A program made the translations under genes and the position numbers. Positions 1-57,630 of a stretch of 59,580 nt of DNA are shown piece by piece (within the stretch, counting starts at the first letter, position 1; each line of letters starts with the position of its first letter). The DNA comes from Halothiobacillus sp. (lineage in GTDB: Bacteria; Pseudomonadota; Gammaproteobacteria; JAAZVP01). The DNA is taken from contig JAAZVP010000010.1 in assembly GCA_018623495.1 (NCBI GenBank), positions 1 to 59,580 on the forward strand, read 5' to 3'. The notes below the pieces were generated by a model. It searched no databases and was not told the DNA's origin. It saw nothing but the letters and a program-made list of their open reading frames with translations.

Positions 1-485
1 ATCACCGCCAGGTCCTGGAACAGGAGCACGCCCACCGCCGAGCGGCCGTGGCGGGAGTTGAGCTCCACCTGCTCGCGCAGCTGCTTGATCACGATGGCCG
101 TGGAGGACAGCGCCAGCACCGCGCCGACGACGAAGGCGGCCTCGGCGGAAAGCCCCAGCGACCAGGCGACCACGGCGGCGATGCCGAGGCTCGCCAGCAC
201 CTGGGTGCTGCCCAGGCCCAGCACCGCCTGGCGCATGGCCACCAGCTTGGCCAGCGAGAATTCCAGGCCCAGGGTGAACAGCAGGAAGACCACGCCGAAC
301 TCGGCCAGAAAGCGGGTGTCCTCGGTGTCCGAGATCCAGCCCAGGGCATGCGGGCCCACCAGCATCCCCACCAGCAGGTAGGCCAGTACCGGGGTGAGGT
401 TGAGGCGACGGAAGAGGGCCACGCCGACCACCGAGGCGGCAAGCAGGATCAGGCTGTTGCCGAGGATGTCGGCTTCGTGGTGCAT
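1..485 (-). CDS. Kef-type cation:proton antiporter, N-terminal part (cut by window edge)
   Basis: The first 161 residues of a membrane antiporter of the CPA2 (KefB/KefC/YbaL) family, which exchanges K+ or Na+ for protons across the inner membrane. The ATG at 485-483 starts MHHEADILGN. Hydrophobic helices follow, with family-like segments TPVLAYLLVGMLVGP, FLLFTLGLEFSLAKL and LALSSTAIVIKQL. The rest, including any TrkA-N/RCK domain, lies left of position 1, so the subfamily cannot be fixed. It is divergent from trpS, with a repeat element between them. Confidence 0.85.
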   Translation of the reverse strand, partial: MHHEADILGNSLILLAASVVGVALFRRLNLTPVLAYLLVGMLVGPHALGWISDTEDTRFLAEFGVVFLLFTLGLEFSLAKLVAMRQAVLGLGSTQVLASLGIAAVVAWSLGLSAEAAFVVGAVLALSSTAIVIKQLREQVELNSRHGRSAVGVLLFQDLAV

Positions 486-30967: not shown

Positions 30968-32123
30968 CCGGATCCTCGAGCGCTGGCTGTTGGCGCTGCT
31001 CGGCCTGTTCGCCCTGGCCGGCTGCAGCGGGGTCGAGGACACCACCGAGCCGCCCACGCCGCTGGAGAAACTGGAGACCGTCCAGGTCGAACCCGAGGTG
31101 CTCTGGCGGCGCTCGGTGGGCTCGGGCGCGCCGGGGCGCCTGCTGCGACTCGAGCCGTTCGTCGCCGGCGAGCGGGTCTTCGCCGCGGGTCGCGACGGCC
31201 GGGTGACCGCCTTTGCCGTCGCCAGCGGCAAGCGGCTCTGGGAACGGGACCTGGAGATGCCCGTCACCGCCGGGGTCGGCGGCGGGGCCGGGCTGGTGCT
31301 GGTGGCCGGCGGCGAGCGAGAGCTGGTGGCGCTGGATGCCGGGACCGGCGAGACGCGCTGGCGCCACCGGCTCACCAGCCCGGCCTATGCCCCGGCCACC
31401 GCCGATCGCGGGCGGGTGGCGGTGCGCACCCAGGACGGGCGCATCAACGTGCTCGACGCCGCCGACGGCAGCGAGATCTGGGCCGACTCGCGCAAGGTCC
31501 CGTCGCTCTCCCTGCAGGGCAGCGCCACGCCAAGGATCCTTGCCGAGGGCCTGCTCGTCGGGTTCGACAACGGCAAGCTGGCGCTGTTCGACCTGGAGGA
31601 CGGGCGCCTGAAGTGGGAGGTCAACGTCGCCCAGCCCAGTGGACGTTCCGCGCTGGAGCGGATGGTGGACGTGGACGGCGAGCCCTGGGTGGGCGACGGC
31701 GTGATCTACGCGCTGGCCTACCAGGGCCGCCTGGTGGCCGTGGACGCCGCCCGCGGCCAGCTGCTGTGGGCCCGCGAACTGTCCGGCTACCACGGCCTGG
31801 TCGGGGATGCCCGCCGCATCTACGTCATTGACGCCGACGGCCTCGTCTGGACCATCGACAAGTCCAACGGCGCGGCCATCTGGCGCCAGAACGGCCTGCG
31901 CGGGCGCCAGCCCTCCGCCCCGGCCTTCCACGACGGCCACCTGGTGGTGGGCGACCTGGAGGGCTATGTCCACTGGATCGACCCGGTCAGTGGCCAGCTG
32001 GTGGGGCGCCACCGCGTCGGTTCCGAGGCGGTGGGCGGCCGCCCGGTGGCGGCCGGCGGTCGCCTGTTCGTGCTGGACGACGGCGGCCGCCTGACGGCCC
32101 TGGCCGCCGATAGCGGCGGGTGA
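30960..32123 (+). CDS. bamB: Outer membrane assembly lipoprotein BamB
   Basis: Eight-bladed propeller lipoprotein of the BAM complex that inserts beta-barrel proteins. 387 residues from ATG 30960, overlapping yfgM by eight bases. The signal [20 protein letters not shown] ends in lipobox LAGC. PQQ-like blades recur, for example [42 protein letters not shown] and [14 protein letters not shown] conserved loop [18 protein letters not shown] is present. Confidence 0.95.
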
Positions 32124-32125
32124 CC

Positions 32126-33463
32126 ATGAGCGTCAAGCCCGTCGTCGCCCTGGTGGGCCGGCCCAACGTGGGCAAGTCCACCCTGTTCAACCGGCTCACG
32201 CGCACCCGCGACGCGCTGGTCGCCGACCTGCCCGGCGTCACCCGCGACCGGCAGTACGGCACCGCCGAGATCGACGGCCGGGCGTTCATCGTGGTCGACA
32301 CCGGTGGGCTGAGCGGCGACGAGGCCGGCCTGGACAGCCTGATGGCCGAGCAGACCCGCCAGGCCGTGGAGGAGGCCGACGTGGTGCTGTTCATGGTCGA
32401 CGGCCGCGACGGCGTGCTGCCCGCCGACGAGCAGATCGCCGGGCAGCTTCGGCGCCTGGGCAAGCCCGTGCGGCTGGTGGTCAACAAGATCGACGGTCTC
32501 GACCCCGATGCCGTGATCGCCGACTTCTACGGCCTGGGCCTGGGCGAGCCCGCACCCATCGCTGCCGCCCAGGGGCGGGGCGTGGCCGCGCTCCTGGACG
32601 GGCTCGAGGGGGTCCTGCCGAGTGCGGCGGGGCAGGGACCCGAGGACGAGATGGCCCTCGGCACGCGGGTGGCCGTGGTCGGCCGGCCCAACGTGGGCAA
32701 GTCCACGCTGGTGAACCGGCTGCTGGGCGAGGAGCGCATGGTCGCCTTCGACGAGGCCGGCACCACCCGGGACGCCGTGGAGATCCCCTTCGAGCGGGAC
32801 GGCCGCCCCTACACCCTGGTGGACACCGCCGGGGTGCGCCGCCGGGCCCGGGTGCGCCAGGGCGTGGAAAAGTTCTCGGTGGTCAAGACGCTGCAGGCCA
32901 TCGAACGGGCCCACGTGGTGGTGATGGTGATCGATGCCCGCGAAGGCGTCACCGAGCAGGACCTGCACCTGCTGGGCCACGTGATCGAGTCCGGCCGGGC
33001 GCTGGTGGTCGCGGTCAACAAGTGGGACCACATGGACGCCGACCAGCGCGATGCCACCCGCCGGGGCCTGGACCGTCGCATGGCCTTCGCCCGCTTTGCC
33101 GAGACCCACTTCATTTCCGCCCTGCACGGCACCGGCGTGGGGCTCCTGATGGAGGCCGTGGACCGGGCCCACGCGGCGGCCACCCGCAAGATCTCCACCG
33201 GCGTGCTCACCCGGGCACTGGTGGAGGCGGTAGAGGCCCACCAGCCGCCGCTGGTTCGCGGCCGGCGGATCAAGTTGCGCTACGCCCACCAGGGAGGCTC
33301 CAATCCGCCACGGATCGTGGTCCACGGCAAGCAGACCGGGCGCCTGCCCGGCGCCTACCGGCGCTACCTGGAAAACCACTTCCGCCGGACCTTCGACCTC
33401 CAGGGCACGCCCGTGCGGCTGGAATTCCGCACCGACGAGAACCCCTACGCGGGAAAGCGATAG
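32126..33463 (+). CDS. der: Ribosome biogenesis GTPase Der (EngA)
   Basis: Tandem-GTPase factor for 50S subunit maturation. 445 residues. The first G domain has [20 protein letters not shown] near residues 10-29 and [11 protein letters not shown]; the second has [19 protein letters not shown] near residue 188, [11 protein letters not shown] and NKWDHMD. The C-terminal KH-like domain has [16 protein letters not shown]. The ATG at 32126 is chosen over a GTG six bases upstream. A REP cluster follows and this plus-strand series ends here. Confidence 0.97.
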
Positions 33464-33489
33464 CCGGCTCGGCCCCCGGCCGGTTGGTC

Positions 33490-33752
33490 GTGGGAGCGGC
33501 GGCGTCGCCGCGAACTTCCCGAACGGCCCGGAGGCAACCCCCGTTCGCGACCGGGAGGTCGCTCCCACGGTGGATGGGGCTCCGGGAGGGCGGAGCGGCA
33601 CCCGGGCCGTGGGAGCGGCGTCCCCGCCGCGAATCTCCCCGGGTGGCCGGGGGCCCTCCCGTTCGCGACCGGGAGGTCGCTCCCACGGTAGCCGGGGTCC
33701 GGGAGGGCGGAACGCGGTACCCTGTCCGTGGGAGCGGCGTCCCCGCCGCGAA
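33490..33752. repeat. REP-like palindrome cluster (five alternating units)
   Basis: Five copies of a hairpin half-unit alternate in direction. gtgggagcggcgtccccgcc-type units are at 33490, 33609 and 33728; their partners, cgttcgcgaccgggaggtcg...cccac, are at 33542-33568 and about 33660-33686. Each unit can fold on itself. Links share ccgggagggcgg-like sequence. The cluster fills most of the 355 bases between der and the minus-strand cluster; nothing else is visible there. Confidence 0.85.
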
Positions 33753-33818
33753 TGTCCGTCCAGGCGTTCGCCCTGCGCAAAGGAACCGAAGTGGGGCAGC
33801 CGCAGCCGTGAAAGGTTC

Positions 33819-34565
33819 CTAGGCCCCGAGGGTGTCCATGAGGTCGATCATGAACTCGGTGTCTTCCTGCTCGATGGGTTCCCAGGCATCGAAGCCCAGG
33901 GTGTCGAGCACGCCGCGCCCCTTCTCGTCCTCGCTCATCTCCACCAGCCGTTGCTGGATCTCCTCGCGCCGCCCGGCCAGGCGGGGCCCCACCAACAGGC
34001 TGTGGTGGATGACGCTGATCTGGCTCTCGATCAGCGGCCGCAGCCTGGAGCGGACCATCCTGGAGAGGTCCTGGTAGGCCTCGGCGAGGAAGAATCCCAC
34101 GTCGGCCTGGCCGCGGAAGAGCTCCTTGGCCACCAGTACGTAGTTCTGTACCTGCTTGAGCTCGATGTTGTCCCGGGTGAGATCGGCGGGCTCGAGCATG
34201 ATCATGCCCATCAGGTGCACCTCGGGGTCCTCGGCGGAGACCACGGTGATGCCCGGGGACAGCTCTTCGACGTCGTTGATGTCGCTGTCTTCACTGACGG
34301 CGACGATGGCTTCGTCGGCCTTGCCACCGGGGCGTGCCACGGCGGAAAAGCCCTTCTCCCGGACCAGCATGGCGGCGTCGAAGGGATTGGCGTAGATCAG
34401 GTCGATCTCGTCGTTGGCGATCGCCTTGCGCTGCTCGTCGAACCCCGAGTACAGCTCCAGGTGGATGCCCGTGTCCAGGCGTCGCTGGAGACAGGTGTTG
34501 AAGATGTACCAGTCGGAGATGTGGTCCGGCGAGAAGTCCGGGCTCACCGTCATGGTCAGGGACAT
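33819..34565 (-). CDS. Cytoplasmic PhnD-like binding protein A (unknown function)
   Basis: 248 residues with the fold signs of phosphate/phosphonate solute-binding proteins (PhnD type II periplasmic-binding fold), especially DEIDLIYANPFDAAMLV and a PGITVVSAEDPEVHL lobe. It starts MSLTMTVSPDFSPDH and has no signal peptide or lipobox, so it should stay in the cytoplasm, and no ABC permease or ATPase is nearby. The C-terminal signature DEKGRGVLDTLGFDAW is shared with the protein at 35483. Ribosome site GGAGGA lies just before the start. It is the last gene of the cluster. Role as a sensor is inferred, not shown. Confidence 0.8.
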   Translation of the reverse strand: MSLTMTVSPDFSPDHISDWYIFNTCLQRRLDTGIHLELYSGFDEQRKAIANDEIDLIYANPFDAAMLVREKGFSAVARPGGKADEAIVAVSEDSDINDVEELSPGITVVSAEDPEVHLMGMIMLEPADLTRDNIELKQVQNYVLVAKELFRGQADVGFFLAEAYQDLSRMVRSRLRPLIESQISVIHHSLLVGPRLAGRREEIQQRLVEMSEDEKGRGVLDTLGFDAWEPIEQEDTEFMIDLMDTLGA

Positions 34566-35051
34566 TTAATCCTCCTCTCCCCGCATGCTGGCGTAGAGCG
34601 CCTCGCTCTCCTCCACCTTGCGTCGCGAGGGTTTGCGGCGCACGGAAGTGTAACCCACGATCTCGCCGTCGCGAACGTTGGGGATCACGGTGGCATAGAC
34701 CCAGTAGTGGCAGCCGTCCTTGCGCAGGTTCTTGACGTAGCCGTGCCATTGCTGGCGGTTCTCGACCACGTTCCAGAGGTCGGCGAAGGCCTCGCGCGGC
34801 ATGTCCGGGTGGCGCAGGATGTAGTGGGGCTGGCCCACCAACTCGTCCTCGGTGTAGCCGGACATGTCCACGAAGGCCTGGTTGGCGTGGGTGATGACCC
34901 CCTTGGTGTCGGTGCGCGAGACGATCAGCTTGCCGTCCGGGTAGGGGACTTCTTCGTCGGTCACCAGCACCTTGCGCCGGGTGCCGTCGTAGAACGTGAG
35001 TTCGGCCTCGCGGTAGTCGCCGCTCACGTCTTCGGGGCGCATGTCCTCCAT
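34566..35051 (-). CDS. Stand-alone Aer-like PAS domain protein
   Basis: 161 residues with one PAS domain at about residues 40-140, close in sequence to the FAD-binding PAS of the aerotaxis receptor Aer. TDTKGVITHANQAFVDMSGY, GQPHYILRHPDMPREAFADL and NLRKDGCHYWVYATVIP retain the Arg-His and Asp of the Aer GQPH-RHPDMP loop. There is no membrane segment, HAMP, kinase or MCP signalling domain, so its output must be through partners. Ribosome site GAGGAG is 6 bases before ATG 35051. The stop abuts the next start at 34565. FAD binding is inferred from similarity. Confidence 0.85.
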   Translation of the reverse strand: MEDMRPEDVSGDYREAELTFYDGTRRKVLVTDEEVPYPDGKLIVSRTDTKGVITHANQAFVDMSGYTEDELVGQPHYILRHPDMPREAFADLWNVVENRQQWHGYVKNLRKDGCHYWVYATVIPNVRDGEIVGYTSVRRKPSRRKVEESEALYASMRGEED

Positions 35052-35072: not shown

Positions 35073-35435
35073 TCAGAGCAGTTTGGTGATTTCCTCGGCC
35101 GCCCGCTTGACGTCGAGGAAGATCAGGCCGAGCTTGGCGGTGGGCTTGGCCATGACCGTGACCACGGCCTCCTCGCCGGCGTGGGTCATCAGCACGTAGC
35201 CCTGGTCGCCCTTGATCAGGACCTGGTCGAGCTCGCCCCGGGCGAGTTCGCTGGCCGTGCGGTCACCCAGCGAGAGCATGGCCGCGCTCATGGCGCCGAC
35301 GCGGTCCTCGTCCATGCCGGAAGGCAGCAGGGCGGCCATCATCAGGCCGTCGGTGGAGATCACGGCGGAGGCCTCGATATCGGCGGAGGTGCCGTTGAGC
35401 TCGCTCAGGATGGAATTCATGGTTTCTTCGCGCAT
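35073..35435 (-). CDS. Roadblock/LC7 domain protein
   Basis: 120 residues forming one Roadblock/LC7 (MglB-like) domain: DIEASAVISTDGLMMAALLP, MSAAMLSLGDRTASELARG, QVLIKGDQGYVLMTHAG and VVTVMAKPTAKLGLIFLDVK. In bacteria such proteins often dimerise and regulate Ras-like GTPases such as MglA, but no GTPase gene of that type is in this window. GAGGAG lies 7 bases before ATG 35435; a second ATG at 35420 is possible. It sits between the PAS and the second PhnD-like gene, suggesting a shared complex. Confidence 0.88.
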   Translation of the reverse strand: MREETMNSILSELNGTSADIEASAVISTDGLMMAALLPSGMDEDRVGAMSAAMLSLGDRTASELARGELDQVLIKGDQGYVLMTHAGEEAVVTVMAKPTAKLGLIFLDVKRAAEEITKLL

Positions 35436-35482: not shown

Positions 35483-36217
35483 TCAGGCGTAGCGCTCACG
35501 GATCGTCTGGATGATATCCCAGTGTTCTTCCTCGACCAGGCGGAAGGCGTCCATCCCCAGGTCCTCGAGCACGGCGCGGCCGCGTTCCGAGTCGGCCATT
35601 CCCGAGAGGATCCCGGCGAGCGCGTCGGCATGGATGGCCTGCTGCGGATGCAGCATGAACATGTGGAAGGCGGTTTGCTCGCCGGATTCGTGCAGGACCT
35701 CGATGGACTTGCGGTTCAGACCGTTGAGGTCGTTGAAGAAGTCGCGGTAGAGAAAGCCGTAGGGCACCTCCTCGCGGTAGACGCTGTTGAGCACGGCCAG
35801 CCAGCTGGGCTTGTCGACGATCTCGCCCGGCCGGATGCCCTCGCGCTCGAGGACGTGGCGGGCGATGTTGGTCGGCAGCATGCTGGTGACCGAGGCCACG
35901 GGCTGGCCCTCCAGGGCCTTCAGTCCCCCCTCGTGGCGGGCCGAGGGCGAGGCGATGAAGACGGTCTCGTCGAACAGGTTGGTGGCCCGGCACAGGGGGA
36001 TGAAGCCGTGTCCCTCCAGCAGCCGCAATGCATCCTGCGGGTTGGCGTAGATCAGGTCCGCCTCGTGCATGCCCTGGTGGAACTCGGCGAAGTCCATGGC
36101 CTGGTCGAAACGGATCGCGGCGTCGAGTTGCTGGCCGAGGTACTGGGCCAGCGCGAACCAGCGCTCGGGTCGCTTGGCGGTGTCGTGCGGGCAGACGCGC
36201 AGGGACCATTTCTCCAT
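35483..36217 (-). CDS. Cytoplasmic PhnD-like binding protein B (paralogue of A)
   Basis: 244 residues, again PhnD-like and without a signal peptide (starts MEKWSLRVCPHDTAKRPERW). Shared with protein A: EADLIYANPQDALRLL and the C-terminal SERGRAVLEDLGMDAF. The ligand-facing regions between these differ greatly, so the two likely recognise different things or one has lost binding. A strong ribosome site AAGGAG precedes ATG 36217. No transporter genes are near. Confidence 0.8.
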   Translation of the reverse strand: MEKWSLRVCPHDTAKRPERWFALAQYLGQQLDAAIRFDQAMDFAEFHQGMHEADLIYANPQDALRLLEGHGFIPLCRATNLFDETVFIASPSARHEGGLKALEGQPVASVTSMLPTNIARHVLEREGIRPGEIVDKPSWLAVLNSVYREEVPYGFLYRDFFNDLNGLNRKSIEVLHESGEQTAFHMFMLHPQQAIHADALAGILSGMADSERGRAVLEDLGMDAFRLVEEEHWDIIQTIRERYA

Positions 36218-36234: not shown

Positions 36235-36876
36235 TCAGGCGGGGCTTTCGCCGTAACGCTGGGTCAGGACCCAGGCCAGGTCGACCAGCGCCGGCTGGTT
36301 GAGGTTGGGCAGGCCGCTCAGGATCAGCACGAAACGGTGTGCACCGATGAACAGCGGCCAGAAGCCCAGTTCGCTGTTGCCGCCGGCGTTGACCAGCGCC
36401 CAGTTGTGGCTGTCCACGCCCATGTGCTCGGCCAGCAGGCGGTGGTGCCGGCTCTGCAGGGTGCCGATGTCGGCCGAGAGGGCCGACAGGGCCTCGGCGA
36501 TGTCGTGCTCGAAGCCCTGGTTGGCCAGCTGCAGGCCGTGGGTGTCGGCGAGCAGGGCCTGCTGGTCGCCGGCGAGTTCGCGCACCAGCTTGGTCAGTAC
36601 CGTGTCCAGGGTCCCCTCGGGCACCCGTCGCGACTCCTCCAGGCCCTGGATGAATTCCAGGCTCTGCAGGTGGTGGAGCAGCTCCATGCCCTCCTCGCCT
36701 TCACGGCCGGTGATCTGGCCCACGCTCGTCTCGGTGAGCCGCGGGGTGGCATCGGCGGAGAGCATGCGCAGCAGTGTCTCGCGCGCGGGGTCGGCCTCGG
36801 GCCTGGACACGGCGTGGTAGGCGCCGGCGGGCGTGGGCAGCAGGTGGTATTCTCCGAGCAGCTCGAAGTCGCTCAT
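36235..36876 (-). CDS. Unknown protein, possibly Roadblock-like at its C-terminus
   Basis: 213 residues, not confidently recognised. The N-terminal half (about 1-95) is helical with TETSVGQITGREGEEGMELL, resembling a small winged-helix or DUF4388-type module. The C-terminal half has LADTHGLQLANQGF, MGVDSHNWALVNAGGNSELG and HRFVLILSGLPNLNQPALVD, in the order and spacing expected of a Roadblock/LC7 fold. The resemblance is read by eye and is tentative. It sits 17 bases upstream of the PhnD-like B gene in the same operon. Confidence 0.65.
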   Translation of the reverse strand: MSDFELLGEYHLLPTPAGAYHAVSRPEADPARETLLRMLSADATPRLTETSVGQITGREGEEGMELLHHLQSLEFIQGLEESRRVPEGTLDTVLTKLVRELAGDQQALLADTHGLQLANQGFEHDIAEALSALSADIGTLQSRHHRLLAEHMGVDSHNWALVNAGGNSELGFWPLFIGAHRFVLILSGLPNLNQPALVDLAWVLTQRYGESPA

Positions 36877-36939
36877 GGTCTCTCGTCCCTGTTGGCGGTG
36901 TGCGAAGCGTGATGGATCCCGTGTCTGTCCGTCGTGGTG

Positions 36940-38313
36940 TCAGCGCCCCAGCCAGCGCCGGATCAGGCCGCCGCGCTCGCCGCCGGCCGCGGCCTCCGAG
37001 CCCGCATCGAGGGCCACCATGTCCAGCACCAGCAGGGCGCTGAACAGGCCGAAGACATGCCGCAGCGGCACGCCGAGCACGCTCCCGGTCTCGATCAGCG
37101 AGGCGTGACTGTCGCGCCAGAATTGCGCCACCCGCGGCCCGTCGGGTACCGGGTGGAACCGCTCGAGGTCGGGCCAGTGGCGCAGCCGGACCGGCTGGCG
37201 GGGGTCGATGCCGTAGGGCACGCGGCCGCGGGCACTCCAGAGCGTGACCCGCCACAGGAGGGCATCCGCCTGTTCCCGGCGATGGCCTTCCTCCTGCAGG
37301 CGCTCCCATTCTTCCATGGTGATCTCCCGGCCACGCACCTGGCCGGAGGAGAGCGGCGCACGACACAGCGGCCGCAGCAGGGCATCGGGCATGTCGTTGA
37401 TGACCTCCCCGTTGCCCGGCCCCACCACCAGCAGCCGGTTGGTGCCGGTGAGGCGCTGCGGGCGCCGGTTGCGCCGGGCGGTGGCCAGGGTGGCGGCGAG
37501 CACCCCCTGGAGATAGCGTTCCGGGGCGTAGTGGATGTCGGTCTTGCGCGCCGGGTCGGTGTAGGCCGCGTCTTCCAGTTCCCCGCAGCAGTCCGTGCCG
37601 TTGCCGCCGTTGCCGCCGTTGCGCCGGGGTGCCGGCGACGGCTCCGGGGCGTGGCCGGCGGATGCCGGGCGCAGCCCCTGGGCGCCGGGGAGTTCCAGGC
37701 CCATGCTGGCGGTTGCCCCGGCCTTGCGGTTCTCGGCCAGTTCGGGTTCGGCCGCGGCGGCCGGCGCCTCGGCCTCCGGGGCTTTCGCAGCCGGGGTCTC
37801 GGCCGGCGCGGGTTCGGCGGGTGCCTCGGCCGCGGTCGGGGTCCCGGTTTCCGCCGAGGCCGGTTCGGGCTCGGGTTCGGGCTCGGGTTCGGGCTCGGGC
37901 CCGGGCTTCGGCTCCGGTGGGGTAGGCGCGGGGGCCTGTTCGGGCCGGGGTCGTGACGGGGCGGGTTTCTCCTCGGCCCGTGCCTGTCGTTGCTCTTCCA
38001 CCAGGGGCCGGAGCTCGTCGAGCGCGGCCAGGAACTGTTCCTTGTTGAAGGGCTTTTGCAGCCAGATCCCGCGGTCGATGGACTTCTCGCGCACCGACAT
38101 CACCAGCGCCGGCTTGCGCACGTTGAGGCAGTAGTCGGCCCAGACGTCCCGGCCCTCGGGGGCGTCGAGGTCGACCGCCCCGATCTCGGCCGCGTCGCTG
38201 GAGACGATCTCGCAGCAGCCGCGTGCCGGACCGTCGAGGAACATGCGGAACATGCGCTCACCGCGCTCGGTGAAGCCGTGAATGGAAATCTTGACGGGGT
38301 CACGTTGGGGCAT
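36940..38313 (-). CDS. Degenerate receiver protein with Glu-Pro linker and unknown C-terminal domain
   Basis: 457 residues from ATG 38313 (a TTG two codons upstream is possible). Residues about 5-105 look like a CheY-type receiver: KISIHGFTERGERMF, an acidic strand end AVDLDAPEGRDVW, PALVMSV, and the Lys-Pro loop WLQKPFNKEQFLAALDEL. The acidic pocket is not canonical, so phosphorylation is doubtful. Residues about 110-250 are a Pro/Glu/Ala linker with EP repeats and an NGGNGGNG run. The C-terminal domain (about 255-457) has APERYLQGVLAATLATA, VTLWSARGRVPYGID and PVRLRHWPDLERF; I do not recognise it. It is the largest member of the cluster. Confidence 0.75.
   Translation of the reverse strand: MPQRDPVKISIHGFTERGERMFRMFLDGPARGCCEIVSSDAAEIGAVDLDAPEGRDVWADYCLNVRKPALVMSVREKSIDRGIWLQKPFNKEQFLAALDELRPLVEEQRQARAEEKPAPSRPRPEQAPAPTPPEPKPGPEPEPEPEPEPEPASAETGTPTAAEAPAEPAPAETPAAKAPEAEAPAAAAEPELAENRKAGATASMGLELPGAQGLRPASAGHAPEPSPAPRRNGGNGGNGTDCCGELEDAAYTDPARKTDIHYAPERYLQGVLAATLATARRNRRPQRLTGTNRLLVVGPGNGEVINDMPDALLRPLCRAPLSSGQVRGREITMEEWERLQEEGHRREQADALLWRVTLWSARGRVPYGIDPRQPVRLRHWPDLERFHPVPDGPRVAQFWRDSHASLIETGSVLGVPLRHVFGLFSALLVLDMVALDAGSEAAAGGERGGLIRRWLGR
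37862..37905. repeat. Short tandem repeat in the linker coding region
   Basis: Alternating gggttc/gggctc units repeat about seven times and encode the Glu-Pro repeat of the receiver protein on the minus strand. A second short repeat of ccgttgccg units at about 37598-37621 encodes NGGNGGNG. Both are likely to vary in length between strains. Confidence 0.7.
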
Positions 38314-38319
38314 CGGCAA

Positions 38320-39063
38320 TCACCGCTCGGCGTTCGGTTGCTGTGACGAGGCAGGCCAGCCGTCCGGCAGGGGCAGTCCCTGGCGCTCGAACCACGCGGT
38401 CATTCGATCACGGGCGACGTTGCCCGTCGAGCGCCCGTAGATCGCCAGCAGCTCGGCGGCGATGGCGGCATCGGCCGGGCTCTCCCTGAGGGCGGCCTCC
38501 AGCCGCTTGCGGGCCGCCTCGATCTGGCCGACACGGGCCAGTCGCGCGGCCTCCCGGCGGTCCGGGTCGGCGAAGGCCGTGGGCGTCCGTGCGTCTCGCC
38601 GGAGGATCTCCAGCCGGCCGGTGACGCCCTGGGTGAGCATGGTGTGGCGGATCCGCGCCAGGCCCGGGTCGTCGCTGCCCAGGCCGTCGTCGAGCCGCCG
38701 GCGAAGGAAGATGGCGGCCGTTTTCGGCAGGAACGGTTCGGCCTCGGCCAGCAGGCGCTCGCGCAACGGGCGACCGTAACGACCCAGGGCGATGAACAGA
38801 TCCGCCATGGCGCCGGAGACCATCGACTTGGTGCCGTGCTCCTCGAGCAACCGGATTCGATGGAGATGCGCATGCAGGTCGCCGGGGCGGTCGTGGATGC
38901 GCTGGCCCAGCGAGCGGATGGTCGCCATGGGGTCCACGGGGTGGTCGCCCGTGGCCGGCATCGAACGGGCCACGGCAAGGGCGAAATGGGGATCCACCCT
39001 GCCGATCCCGCGGATGGCAGGGGGAGTACCGGTGGCCCGTATCAGGCGTTTTCCGTCATGCAT
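38320..39063 (-). CDS. TPR-like helical protein, first gene of the sensory cluster
   Basis: 247 residues, soluble and helical, with no signal peptide. The C-terminal part has a TPR-like pair, AARLARVGQIEAARKRLEAA then DAAIAAELLAIYGRSTGN. The middle contains GAMADLFIALGRYGRPLRER. No enzyme motif is visible. ATG 39063 is preceded by GGGAG at 7 bases, which supports this start. The stop is 6 bases before the receiver-protein start, so the two are probably cotranscribed. A scaffold role is a guess. Confidence 0.65.
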   Translation of the reverse strand: MHDGKRLIRATGTPPAIRGIGRVDPHFALAVARSMPATGDHPVDPMATIRSLGQRIHDRPGDLHAHLHRIRLLEEHGTKSMVSGAMADLFIALGRYGRPLRERLLAEAEPFLPKTAAIFLRRRLDDGLGSDDPGLARIRHTMLTQGVTGRLEILRRDARTPTAFADPDRREAARLARVGQIEAARKRLEAALRESPADAAIAAELLAIYGRSTGNVARDRMTAWFERQGLPLPDGWPASSQQPNAER

Positions 39064-42770: not shown

Positions 42771-42868
42771 GGGATGACCTCTTCATTTTGCGCCGGCCGC
42801 CGGCGGTGGGTTCGCGGCCCCTTGGTTGTCCCGGGGCGCGGCGAGTTCCCCGTCGCGGGCGGCGCCGC

Positions 42869-42876
42869 ATTATAAC
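42869..42876. promoter_or_regulatory. Symmetric -10 between queF and smc
   Basis: The bases attataac read TATAAT on the minus strand (42874-42869, toward queF, 99 bases upstream) and TATAAC on the plus strand (42871-42876, 12 bases before smc). No convincing -35 is seen for either direction. If used for smc, the leader would be only a few bases. Confidence 0.35.
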
Positions 42877-42888
42877 CAAACCGCCGGG

Positions 42889-45800
42889 ATGCGCCTTAAG
42901 ACCATCAAGCTCGCCGGGTTCAAGTCGTTCGTCGACCCCACGCAGATCCACTTCCCCTCCAACCGGGTGGGGATCGTGGGGCCCAACGGCTGCGGCAAGT
43001 CCAATACCATCGACGCCGTGCGCTGGGTGATGGGCGAGTCCTCGGCCCGCCACCTGCGCGGCCAGAACCTCGAGGACGTGATCTTTTCCGGCGCCGCCAC
43101 CCGCCAGCCCGTGGGGCAGGCCTCGGTGGAGCTGGTCTTCGACAACAGCGAGGGACGCTGCGGCGGGGAATACGCCCGCTTCAACGAGATCTCGGTCAAG
43201 CGGGTGGCCACCCGCGAGGGCCAGTCCAGGTACTTTCTCAACAACACCCGCTGCCGCCGGCGCGACATCGCCGACATCTTCCTGGGGACCGGCCTCGGGC
43301 CGCGCAGCTACGCCATCATCGAGCAGGGCATGATCTCCCGGCTGGTGGAGGCCCGTCCCGAGGACATCCGCGTCTACGTCGAGGAGGCCGCGGGCATCTC
43401 CAAGTACAAGGCCCGCCGGCGCGAGACCGAGAACCGCATCCGCCACACCCGCGAGAACCTCGAGCGCCTGGAGGACATCCGCGGCGAGCTGGCCGAGCGC
43501 CTCCAGCGCCTGGAACAGCAGGCCCGCACCGCCGAGCGCTACCGCGAACTCAAGCGCGAGCTGGCCACGCTGCGGGCCCGGCTGCTGGCGACGCGCTGGC
43601 GCGACATCGAGGCCGAGCGGGAAAGCCGCATCGCCGGCATCCGCGAGACCGCCCGCGAGCACGAGCGCCACCTCACCGAGCAGCGTCGCCTGGAGGCCGA
43701 ACTGGAAGCCGGCCGCGAGGCGCTGGAGGCGCGCAACGAGGCCGTGGACCGGGCCCAGGCCGCCTTCTACCAGGCCGGTGCCGAGGTCTCCCGGCTGGAG
43801 GCGCGCATCGAGCACCGCCGCGAGCTCGACCGTCGCCAGGCGGCCGACCGCGACGAGGCCCGCGCGGCGCTGGAAGAGACCCGGGAGGCGCTCGAGGCCG
43901 AGCGCGAACGGAGCGAGGAACTGGCCGAGACCCTCGAGGAGCGCGAGGAGGCCCGGGAGATCGCCGCCGAGACCCTGGAGACCGCCGAGGCCTCGCTGGA
44001 GCAGGCCGAGGCCGGGATGGAGGCCTGGTCGGCCGACTGGGAGGCCTTCCGCGAGGCCCAGGCCGAGCCGGTGCGGGTCCAGGAGGTGGAGCGCCGCCAG
44101 GTGAGCACCCTGGCCGCCCAGGTGGAGCGCCACCGCCAGCAGCTCGCCGAGCTCGAGGACGTCGTCGAGGACGGGCCCGCGGCCGGCGAGCTCGCCGACC
44201 TGGAGGCAGCCCTGGAGGAGGCGGGCGAGCGGCGCGCCGAGCTCGAGGCCGAGCGCGAGAGTCGCCAGGCCCGGCTGGCGGAAGCCCGTCAGCGCCTCGA
44301 AACCGCCCGGCGCGAGCGCGAGGCCCGCGCCGAGGCCGTGCAGCAGGACCGCGCCCGGCTGGCCTCGCTCAACACCCTGCAGGAGGCCGCGCTGGCACCG
44401 GAGGACGAGGCCCTGGCCGATTGGCTGGCCGAGGCGGGCATCGACGGCAACCGGCGCCTGGCCCAGGTGCTGACGGTGGAGGATGGCTGGGAGCGCGCGG
44501 TGGAGCTGGTGCTGGGGCACTGGCTGGACGCACCGCTGGTGGATGCCCTGGCACCGGAACCGTCGCCGGCGGCCGGCCTGGCGCTGATCCGGCGGGGCGA
44601 GGCGGAGGCGGCCGGGGCCGGCATGCTGGCCGCCCGCGTGCGCGCCCCGGCGCGCCTCGCGCAGTGGCTGGCCGGCGTGCAGGCGGTGGCGGATGCCGAG
44701 ACCGCCTGGGCCCGGCGCGAGACCCTGGGGCCGGGCGAGTCGGTGATCACCCCGGACGGCCTGTGGCTGGGGCCGGACTGGCTGCGCACCGCCGAGGCCG
44801 GTGACTCGGATGCCGGCGTGCTGGCCCGCGAACGGGCCATCACCGAGCTCGAGTCGCGTATCGAGTCCGGCGAGGCGGCGCTGGCGGCCGCCGAGGCCGA
44901 GGTGGACGCGGCGGCCGAGGCCGTGGAGGCGGCCGAGGCCGGCGAGCGGGCGGCGCAGGCGCGGGTCAACCGTGCCCACGGCGAGGAGAGCACGGCCCGC
45001 TCCGAGCTGCACGCGGCCCGGGTGGAGGCCGAGCAGGCCCGCCTGCGCGAAGAGGAGCGCCGGCGGCGCGCGGCGGAGCTGGCCGAGCGCATCGCCGAGG
45101 ACGAGGCCGCCCTGGAGGAGAGCCGGGAGCGGGTGGAGGCGGCCGAGGAGCGCCTGGAGACCCTGGCCGAGGAACGCGAGGCCCTGGAGCAGCGGCGCGA
45201 GCGGTTGCGCATCACCCTCGAGGAGACCCGCGGCCGGGTGCGCGAGGTGCGTGGCCGCAGCCATGACCTCACCGTGGCCGTGGAGGGCCTGCGCCGCGAC
45301 CGCCAGGCCGCGGTCGAGGGTCTGCGCCGGCTGGAGGCGCAGCGCGCCCGCCAGGCCGAGCGCCTCGAGCGGCTGGCGGCCGCCGAGAGCGCCGACGACA
45401 CGCCGGTGGCCGAACTCGAAGCCGAGCTGGAGGCCCTGCTCGAGGGCCGGCTGGCGGCCGAGAAGACCCTGGAGGCCGCGCGCCGGGAGCAGGCGGAGAC
45501 CGAGACCGCGCAGCGTGAGCGCGAGTCCTCCCGTTCGGCCGAGGAACAGGCGGTGGCCGCGCTGCGCGACGAGATCGAGGCCGCCAAGCTCGCCGAGCAG
45601 GAACTGCGGGTGCGGGCCCAGACGGTGCGCGAGCAGCTGGTCGAGGAGGCCGAGGCCGAACCTGCCGAGGTGCTCGCCGGCATGGACATTGATGCCTCCG
45701 CCGAGGCGCTGGGCGCGGAGGTGGAGCGCCTGGAAGGCCGGATCAGGCGCCTGGGCAACATCAACCTCGCCGCCATCGACGAGTTCCGCGAGCAGAGCGA

Positions 45801-46365
45801 ACGCAAGACCTACCTCGACGAGCAGCACGCCGATCTCGAACAGGCCCTGGCGACGCTGGAATCGGCCATCGCCCGCATCGACCGCGAGACCCGCTCGCGC
45901 TTTCGCGAGACCTTCGAGCGGATCAACACCAACCTGCGCGAGATCTTCCCCAAGCTCTTCGGCGGCGGCGAGGGCTTTCTCGAGATGACCGGCGAGGACC
46001 TGCTGGACACCGGTGTGGCCATCATGGCCCGTCCACCGGGCAAGCGCATCACCCACATCCACCTGATGTCGGGCGGCGAGAAGGCGCTCACCGCGGTGGC
46101 CATGGTCTTCTCCATCTTCCGCCTCAACCCGGCGCCGTTCTGCCTGCTCGACGAGGTGGACGCGCCGCTCGACGATGCCAACGTCGGCCGCTTCTCGGAG
46201 ATGGTTCGCGAGATGTCCGAGCAGGTACAATTCATCTTCATTACCCACAACAAGGTCACGATGGAGCTCTCCTCCCATCTGACCGGGGTCACCATGCGCG
46301 AACCGGGGGTCTCGCGGGTGGTGGCCGTGGATGTCGAGGAGGCGGTCCGTATCGCCGGCAGCTGA
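42889..46365 (+). CDS. smc: Chromosome partition protein SMC
   Basis: Long coiled-coil ATPase that compacts and organises the chromosome with ScpA/ScpB. 1158 residues. N-terminal head: RLKTIKLAGFKSFVDPTQI and Walker A GPNGCGKSNT near residues 30-40. Coiled coil follows, hinge at about 500-640 (ALADWLAEAGIDGNRRLAQV, GPGESVITPDGLWLGP), a second coil, and the C-terminal head with LMSGGEKALTAVAMVFSIF and Walker B LLDEVDAPLDDANV. Coil regions are extremely rich in Glu, Ala and Arg. Enterics use MukB instead; smc-zipA-ligA order is typical of other gammaproteobacteria. Confidence 0.97.
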   Translation: MRLKTIKLAGFKSFVDPTQIHFPSNRVGIVGPNGCGKSNTIDAVRWVMGESSARHLRGQNLEDVIFSGAATRQPVGQASVELVFDNSEGRCGGEYARFNEISVKRVATREGQSRYFLNNTRCRRRDIADIFLGTGLGPRSYAIIEQGMISRLVEARPEDIRVYVEEAAGISKYKARRRETENRIRHTRENLERLEDIRGELAERLQRLEQQARTAERYRELKRELATLRARLLATRWRDIEAERESRIAGIRETAREHERHLTEQRRLEAELEAGREALEARNEAVDRAQAAFYQAGAEVSRLEARIEHRRELDRRQAADRDEARAALEETREALEAERERSEELAETLEEREEAREIAAETLETAEASLEQAEAGMEAWSADWEAFREAQAEPVRVQEVERRQVSTLAAQVERHRQQLAELEDVVEDGPAAGELADLEAALEEAGERRAELEAERESRQARLAEARQRLETARREREARAEAVQQDRARLASLNTLQEAALAPEDEALADWLAEAGIDGNRRLAQVLTVEDGWERAVELVLGHWLDAPLVDALAPEPSPAAGLALIRRGEAEAAGAGMLAARVRAPARLAQWLAGVQAVADAETAWARRETLGPGESVITPDGLWLGPDWLRTAEAGDSDAGVLARERAITELESRIESGEAALAAAEAEVDAAAEAVEAAEAGERAAQARVNRAHGEESTARSELHAARVEAEQARLREEERRRRAAELAERIAEDEAALEESRERVEAAEERLETLAEEREALEQRRERLRITLEETRGRVREVRGRSHDLTVAVEGLRRDRQAAVEGLRRLEAQRARQAERLERLAAAESADDTPVAELEAELEALLEGRLAAEKTLEAARREQAETETAQRERESSRSAEEQAVAALRDEIEAAKLAEQELRVRAQTVREQLVEEAEAEPAEVLAGMDIDASAEALGAEVERLEGRIRRLGNINLAAIDEFREQSERKTYLDEQHADLEQALATLESAIARIDRETRSRFRETFERINTNLREIFPKLFGGGEGFLEMTGEDLLDTGVAIMARPPGKRITHIHLMSGGEKALTAVAMVFSIFRLNPAPFCLLDEVDAPLDDANVGRFSEMVREMSEQVQFIFITHNKVTMELSSHLTGVTMREPGVSRVVAVDVEEAVRIAGS

Positions 46366-46417
46366 GCGGCGGGCCGCCCGTCCGGGTGCGAACGCAGTTA
46401 TCGGGTCGAATATCGGT

Positions 46418-49559
<3,142 letters not shown>

Positions 49560-49579: not shown

Positions 49580-49940
49580 CCCATCCCCTCTCCCGGGGGG
49601 AGAGGGGCCGGGCGCGGCCGGTCTGCACGGCATGCCGATGCGCTTGTGCCGTCCTTTTGACGAGGGGACGCGCTGCCTCTCCCGAGGAGAGCGGCCGGGC
49701 GTCACTCCCGGGGGCTTGATGATGCACCCGGCTCCCCTCTCCCCCCGGAAAGGGGCCGGCCTCGGCCCCGGCGGCACGGCGATGCCCTCGCTCCCCCGGG
49801 GAAAGGGGCCGGGCGTCACTCCCGGGGGCTGGGCGATGCACCCGGCTCCCCTCTCCCCCCGGGAAAGGGGCCGGGCGTCACTCCCAGGGACTGGGCGCTG
49901 CACCCGGCTCCCCTCTCCCTCCGGGAGAGGGGTCGGGGGT
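49580..49940. repeat. Array of GC-rich hairpin repeats downstream of ligA
   Basis: Six or more irregular copies of a ctctccc-ggg-gagaggggcc hairpin unit, linked by gcgtcactcccgggggctgg and gatgcacccggctcccctct. Clear units start near 49590, 49677, 49732, 49790, 49850 and 49908. Units keep one orientation and vary in length. No coding sequence is credible inside. With the ygfZ fragment this explains the 628 bases between ligA and ygfZ. Confidence 0.75.
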
Positions 49941-50067
49941 GAGGGCGATCTCGGAACCGGGTAGGGCAGCTCGCGGAATTCCAGTGCCGGGCCGTCTTCG
50001 TCCAGGTGGAAGGGGCCGCCCGCGTCGAAGGGCTTGAGCTTCATCACCGCCAGCACGGCCTGGCCGC
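49891..50067 (-). pseudogene. Duplicated 3' end of ygfZ (fragment)
   Basis: About 177 bases are nearly identical to 50133-50309, at a constant offset of 242 bases. The copy includes one hairpin repeat plus the last ~40 codons of ygfZ on the minus strand (VLAVMKLKPFDAGGPFHL then ELPYPVPR). The ygfZ stop TAG is TCG in the copy, so the frame runs on into the repeats. It has no start region or domain of its own and is a by-product of tandem duplication. Confidence 0.85.
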
Positions 50068-57114: not shown

Positions 57115-57216
57115 GGGGCCCTCGCGGGTTGATGTGGATCAGGCGGCAGTATAGCGCGTGGGTTCCGGTCGGGTGTCGTTGGAGCGCTCCATTCCGCCCT
57201 CCCGGCCCCGGCCACC

Positions 57217-57630
57217 GTGGGAGCGACCTCCCGGTCGCGAACGGGGGGGCTCCTTCCGCCCGGGGATTTCGCGGCGAGGACGCCGCTCCCACGGCCCGGG
57301 TGCCGCGCTCCACCCTCCCGGACCCCGGCTGTTGTGGGAGCGACCTCCCGGTCGCGAACGGGGGTTGCCTCCTGGCCGCCCGGGAGGTTCGCGGCGGGGA
57401 CGCCGCTCCCACAGGGAACGCGGGGCTCCCGGACCCCGGCCACCGTGGGAGCGACCTCCCGGTCGCGAACGGGGGGCTCCTTCCGCCCGGGGATTTCGCG
57501 GCGAGGACGCCGCTCCCACAGGGAACGCGGGGCTCCCGGACCCCATCCACCGTGGGAGCGACCTCCCGGTCGCGAACGGCGGTTGCCTCCCGACGGTTCG
57601 GGAAGTTCGCGGCGGGGACGCCGCTCCCAC
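57217..57630. repeat. REP-like palindrome array (four inverted pairs)
   Basis: Eight alternating units: gtgggagcgacctcccggtc... at 57217, 57334, 57445 and 57552, each followed by ttcgcggcg-ggacgccgctcccac at 57268, 57388, 57494 and 57606. Pairs repeat every 107-117 bases, with links such as gggctcccggaccccggcca. Same family as 33490-33752. The array fills most of the 600 bases between pilD and the Uma2-family gene. Confidence 0.88.

Follow-up and report, generated by a model that had tools for sequence, protein, structure and literature searches.

The Group 3 MglA systems, described in 2014 by Wuichet and Sogaard-Andersen, occur almost only in beta/gamma-Proteobacteria and, in the portion of that paper available, their authors proposed a transcriptional role for an uncharacterised protein encoded with them (PMC4316618). 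Besides the mgl locus of Snodgrassella, no study of a Group 3 locus was found in the literature; according to the accessible part of that report, the locus is likewise group 3, contains several mglB genes and keeps one mglA, and an mglB allele changed how colonies spread on soft agar and also affected colonisation (PMC11112851). For the Group 2 conservons, loss of mglA with retention of the flanking conservon genes has been reported. No report of GTPase loss with kept flanks in Group 3 was found in the literature examined, some of it accessible in part, nor was an assigned function for the Group 3 receiver-winged-helix protein.

The window, i.e. the whole 59,580-nucleotide stretch of Halothiobacillus sp. 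DNA analysed here, encodes a member of this uncharacterised family in an operon that contains every recurring neighbour of its relatives except the MglA-like GTPase:

38320..39063, minus strand: TPR-like protein, with which the conserved operon begins (weak TPR match; neighbourhood clusters)
36940..38313, minus strand: RRX gene (457 aa; pseudo-receiver, linker and C-domain; "RRX" is a label used here)
36877..36939, no strand: junction between RRX and ROBL2, the site of the MglA-like GTPase gene in relatives, too short for it here
36235..36876, minus strand: ROBL2, second roadblock-like protein (Robl_LC7, E 0.043; family member, E 0.0013)
35483..36217, minus strand: PhnD-like binding protein without a signal peptide evident on visual inspection (PF12974, E 1.3e-21)
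35073..35435, minus strand: ROBL1, roadblock/LC7 protein, MglB-like (Robl_LC7, E 1.6e-14)
34566..35051, minus strand: PAS-domain protein (Pfam/NCBIfam search)
33819..34565, minus strand: second PhnD-like binding protein, likewise without a signal peptide evident on visual inspection

The RRX frame starts with an ATG at 38313 on the minus strand and stops at 36940-36942, giving the 457 residues that a previous sequence-only reading had assigned to it, and all seven operon genes are open frames. As far as the available portion of the 2014 paper describes the unknown Group 3 protein, it and RRX share a receiver-like N-terminal part, a variable linker and a winged-helix-like C-terminal part without a Pfam model, and both adjoin MglB homologues (PMC4316618). 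One or two coupled MglB/roadblock homologues accompany Group 3 systems, and the window has ROBL1 and, weakly by Pfam, ROBL2. In contrast to the published systems, as covered by that portion, no MglA homologue is present in the window operon or detectable in the genome (PMC4316618), and the Snodgrassella locus differs from the window in the same respect (PMC11112851, accessible part). RomR of Myxococcus xanthus resembles RRX as a receiver-domain partner of an MglA/MglB module; unlike RRX-type genes it is encoded away from mglA, and the conservon of Actinobacteria (Group 2 MglA, CvnA-D), also a GTPase/roadblock operon, differs from the window operon in having a histidine kinase but lacking a response regulator (PMC4316618, available portion).

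The operon lies among housekeeping genes, namely a Der-type GTPase (32120-33463), SMC (42826-46365), ZipA (46331-47275) and NAD-dependent DNA ligase (47265-49559). Tandem arrays of about 107-119-bp units at 33489-33757 and 57199-57630 resemble each other (GTGGGAGCG...GTCGC) and may represent an intergenic repeat element, and 49739-49978 is a tandem array of 62-bp GC-rich units.

Searches with the whole RRX protein and with its N- and C-terminal parts gave no above-threshold match in Pfam or NCBIfam, and querying solved structures with single RRX sequences likewise returned nothing. A first search matched only six of 56 class genomes, the window's own included, with some matches (in G017 and two others) covering the linker or a part of the protein only. 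An alignment of the C-domain, seeded from four good homologues (L002-L005), gave a profile that, at E <= 0.001, found the domain in 71 of 369 class genomes, or in 67 of 331 when only the better assemblies are counted; this distribution rules out an orphan domain of unknown origin. Exact peptide patterns meant for close relatives matched 42 stretches, none of which was confirmed; scanning named genomes with a pattern yielded 159 candidates, 143 of them confirmed as relatives and 80 kept, including Methylotuvimicrobium, Thiothrix, Acidithiobacillus, Zoogloea, Sphaerotilus, Thiocystis and Ectothiorhodospira.

When the reading frames of 40 neighbourhoods and the window were clustered by BLAST without labels, the clusters were found, as lower bounds among the 41 loci, in at least 38 for RRX, 35 for the GTPase, 34 for ROBL1, 21 for ROBL2, 16 for the TPR protein, 11 for PhnD and 10 for PAS. 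The typical order is TPR - RRX - GTPase - ROBL2 - ROBL1 - PAS - PhnD, and the typical GTPase of the relatives bears the GTPGQ and DAR motifs given for Group 3 in the available portion of the original description (PMC4316618). Replacement of the GTPase by the PhnD-like gene was considered and rejected: locus L128 has a PhnD-like gene between ROBL2 and ROBL1 and keeps its GTPase. A FimV-like membrane TPR protein, noticed by eye in some relatives, was dropped for want of a Pfam/NCBIfam match. A protein with HAMP and adenylate/guanylate cyclase domains lies near the operon in seven of the 41 neighbourhoods (e.g. L065:12769-14358). A single frame in some relatives encodes a Ser/Thr-kinase-like domain followed by the MglA-like GTPase, as judged by eye (L003:1590-2945, L151:7390-8961); in the latter the usual P-loop sequence of the GTPase part is no longer visible.

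A GTPase profile built from nine relatives had no match at E <= 1 in the window genome, with strong matches in other genomes in the same search, and no MglA homologue for a Group 3 system was found in the operon or elsewhere in that genome. At E <= 0.001 the GTPase was detected in 65 of the 71 C-domain-bearing genomes, leaving six without it (the window genome G000, and G097, G119, G141, G192 and G350). G373, a sister of G097 that is only 79% complete, also lacks it, and a TPR-RRX-ROBL2 arrangement with no GTPase between was likewise seen in G097, G350, G373 and one of the two G372 loci. At the G192 site there is no more than a weak match interrupted by four stops, and in G066 (L064:8534-9559) the middle part of a GTPase-like frame, including the GTPGQ stretch, is unrecognisable. 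In a ROBL2 tree, a single origin of the GTPase-less ROBL2-type operons was not rejected (p-AU 0.318); a first tree with long rows included gave five changes, and the second left out long, short and duplicate rows. Genomes of family f10 carry a second, more diverged RRX paralogue with no neighbouring GTPase (L202:199-2100, L203:349-1875, L201:289-2145); it is followed in L202 and L203 by a frame in which a TPR-like part is fused to ROBL2, and the L202 linker is a long EEPA-repeat.

It is very unlikely that the window belongs to an ordinary Group 3 system whose GTPase lies in an assembly gap or has diverged too far for the profile. The genome is in 110 contigs and the absence is profile-based, so that absence of the gene from the organism is likely rather than proven; against a hidden gene speak the completeness of 98.97%, the failure to find any match even at E <= 1, and the usual gene site, the RRX-ROBL2 junction, which measures 63 bp and lies within one contig. 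A change in the C-domain that agrees with loss points in the same direction.

This change concerns the family motif WPNLTRL, which reads WPDLERF in the window, MPDAERF in G097 and TPDSMRF in G373, and is destroyed in G350. For the motif table, the 11 of the 71 genomes with weak C-domain scores (below 55) were dropped, and the remaining 60 plus eight loci, minus four second paralogues, gave 64 rows; loci L080-L159 were not used for judging the motif because they had been found via an exact pattern that holds WPNLTRL. The WPN core is broken in all seven rows from GTPase-less genomes and in six of the 57 rows with a GTPase (Fisher p 2.8e-6, for rows that are not independent). Two of the WPN-broken GTPase rows, G066 and G291, belong to the same genus as the GTPase-less G192 and have weak or partial GTPase matches. 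Aspartate occupies the Asn position of the motif in five of six GTPase-less and in eight of 65 GTPase-bearing genomes (four of the 65 having no residue there). WPN is intact at four of the 14 loci that have no GTPase next to them (L058, L077, L204 and L208), and two of the genomes holding these four (G172, G273) have a GTPase elsewhere. When the link between motif and GTPase was examined by phylogenetic pairing, three pairs on starred branches gave a median p of 0.5, which is not significant. Of the five conserved columns within the motif, rows with a GTPase break 0.40 on average, and of 16 conserved columns elsewhere they break 2.79; the corresponding numbers are two and four in the window, three and four in G097, and five and two in G350. 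In the alignment, the motif change is thus local and beyond general divergence; its link with the GTPase is non-significant once phylogeny is allowed for. Judged from these sequences, WPNLTRL is a likely candidate for a GTPase-docking patch.

The same two observations, a lost GTPase and a changed motif, would also fit an operon that became functionless and is now drifting, and the stops at the G192 GTPase site demonstrate that decay occurs in the RRX family. Taking into account that all seven window genes are open, that RRX breaks four of the 16 conserved non-motif columns, near the mean of the GTPase-bearing rows, that both of its domains model confidently and that GTPase-less operons persist in other families, such decay is considered quite unlikely for the window. 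Our preferred account, to which we give an even chance of being right as a whole, is that RRX acts as an adaptor within a Group 3 Mgl-type operon, with WPNLTRL as the candidate GTPase-docking patch, in a lineage that lost the GTPase and kept the rest.

The RRX protein has the following parts:

37978..38313, minus strand: receiver-like N-domain, residues 1-112, with Asp48, Asp50, Ser73 and Lys87-Pro88 (AlphaFold2, Foldseek, VIA, profile)
37591..37989, minus strand: Pro/Glu/Ala low-complexity linker, residues about 109-241 (direct reading of the translation)
37862..37907, minus strand: EP tract, 6/12-bp tandem units (tandem-repeat detection)
36943..37587, minus strand: C-domain, residues 243-457, last third winged-helix-like (AlphaFold2 model; VIA)
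37156..37176, minus strand: WPDLERF, site of the family motif WPNLTRL (family alignment)
36943..36972, minus strand: basic, amphipathic-looking C-terminal tail GGLIRRWLGR (sequence reading)

The AlphaFold2 model of the N-domain (residues 1-112) has a mean pLDDT of 93.0 and finds its best matches among receivers (Foldseek probability 1.00, best E 7.2e-4; VIA Z 10.8). It contains five strands, and DSSP finds no helix between strands 2 and 3 or between strands 4 and 5. Furthermore, the profile of the N-domain alignment matches a solved receiver (E 1.5e-5), with Asp48 falling on the phospho-acceptor. The structure alignments (56 and 55 rows) were thinned from the 80 loci L080-L159. Across 55 rows, position 48 is Asp in 44, Asn in 10 and a gap in one; Asp50 is conserved in 54; position 73, the Thr/Ser site after strand 4, is Ser in 38, Thr in eight and another residue in nine, with Asp and Ser in the window at 48 and 73, respectively. 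Lys87 is found in 54 of 55 rows and Pro88 in all 55, so the CheY-like Lys-Pro loop proposed from the sequence is real. The acidic pair expected after strand 1 was not found: window positions 11-15 read I-H-G-F-T, and acidic residues occur in none of the 55 rows at position 12, two at 13, none at 14 and thirty at 15. As modelled, the N-domain is a receiver fold with a pseudo-receiver make-up.

The earlier description of a degenerate receiver therefore holds for the fold and for the missing acidic pair, which leaves the canonical DD/D/T/K set incomplete, and goes too far in that Asp48, Ser73 and Lys87 are kept. The pocket is canonical as far as the phospho-acceptor is concerned, with Asp48 in the phospho-Asp column of solved receivers, and the Asp whose conservation had been in question is common in the family and replaced by Asn in a minority. 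Since these three residues are retained, the window protein could still be phosphorylated; a phosphorylation response as the default reading is unsupported, the acidic pair being missing.

The linker of homologues spans 19 to 492 residues with a median of 71, against 154 in the window, in a rough alignment of 121 homologues. The 6/12-bp tandem units of the EP tract, noted before, were recovered by repeat detection as 3.8 copies of 12 bp with 94% match, and a run of at least four EP/AE-type repeats is present in the window and one other of these 121 homologues.

The C-domain of about 215 residues (residues 243-457) also models confidently, with a mean pLDDT of 91.3, and its last ~70 residues are winged-helix-like. 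The motifs already picked out by the sequence-only reading (W; LW-S--GR-P-GID; PV-L--WPD) lie at family-conserved positions, and the last 14 residues have a median net charge of +3 across 121 rows. The domain had been called unrecognised and unplaceable; the first term stands, as the C-domain has no strong match to a characterised domain in Pfam/NCBIfam, and the 56 family members give only scattered weak Pfam matches, mostly to HTH models and in single members (TrmB, E 0.00066). The second does not, as the family corresponds to a protein of unknown function already published for Group 3 MglA systems (PMC4316618, available portion). PF14332 (PATAN/DUF4388), which is tied to other Mgl groups, was matched by none of the 56 members at E <= 0.1. 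DUF4388 gave weak matches in four of 120 phylum genomes; by eye, three of the four loci are PilB-like ATPases and the fourth is another protein.

Comparison with solved structures gave no Foldseek match for the C-domain model at E <= 0.001 and, by sequence, nothing at E < 0.39. For the winged-helix third, the seven best VIA rows are all GATOR1/SEA complex chains (Z 8.1 to 6.8 over ~70 residues), the best being 8adl_S with Z 8.1 and 2.3 A over 70 residues. The matched chains, which we take to be of the NPRL2/NPRL3 type, belong to eukaryotic regulators of Rag GTPases and resemble RRX in the winged-helix part; with 10% identity, a Foldseek E of 0.69 and only ~70 residues aligned, the likeness is a hint from the model, and a VIA Z near 8 may reflect only a common arrangement.

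These results bear on whether RRX could be a DNA-binding response regulator, its winged helix reading promoters so that the Mgl module would control transcription. Transcriptional response regulators are usually built as a receiver followed by a winged helix, and single family members do show the weak HTH-type matches given above; this role was also suggested by Wuichet and Sogaard-Andersen, as far as the available portion of their paper goes (PMC4316618). However, the recognition position holds a neutral helix (mean net charge -0.06) that is mostly hydrophobic (63%, 68 rows), and this speaks for protein contacts over DNA without proving them; furthermore, the best winged-helix rows are chains of GTPase-regulating complexes and not DNA binders (Z about 8), and the receiver lacks the acidic pair. 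Transcriptional control through DNA binding is, on this evidence, improbable, though it deserves a serious hearing, and we infer that RRX is an adaptor and not a phosphorylation-driven transcription factor.

As an adaptor, RRX would take input through its receiver-like domain mainly by protein contact, the flexible linker would tether that domain, and the C-domain would bind the GTPase/roadblock module, with WPNLTRL as the candidate docking patch. In the window lineage the GTPase gene would have been lost from between RRX and ROBL2, after which the patch would have changed, with the TPR, roadblock, PAS and PhnD-like partners all retained. Because these partners are kept, the module probably still works without a GTP switch. 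By analogy with the mgl genes of Myxococcus and Snodgrassella, the process served would likeliest be type IV pili or surface behaviour. A bolder combination, in which roadblock, pseudo-receiver, PAS and PhnD-like proteins form a GTPase-free yet working unit, WPNLTRL, disappearing together with the GTPase, is the docking site itself and the C-domain is a bacterial counterpart of the GATOR1 type, seems unlikely.

The protein family was already known, and the GTPase-less operon is a new variant of its setting. Group 3 Mgl systems occur widely among beta/gamma-Proteobacteria, and operons that have lost only the GTPase would reveal which of their parts can stand alone, the stretch that changes with this loss being a short candidate for the GTPase contact. 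The RRX family itself would gain a Pfam-ready alignment and two confident models.
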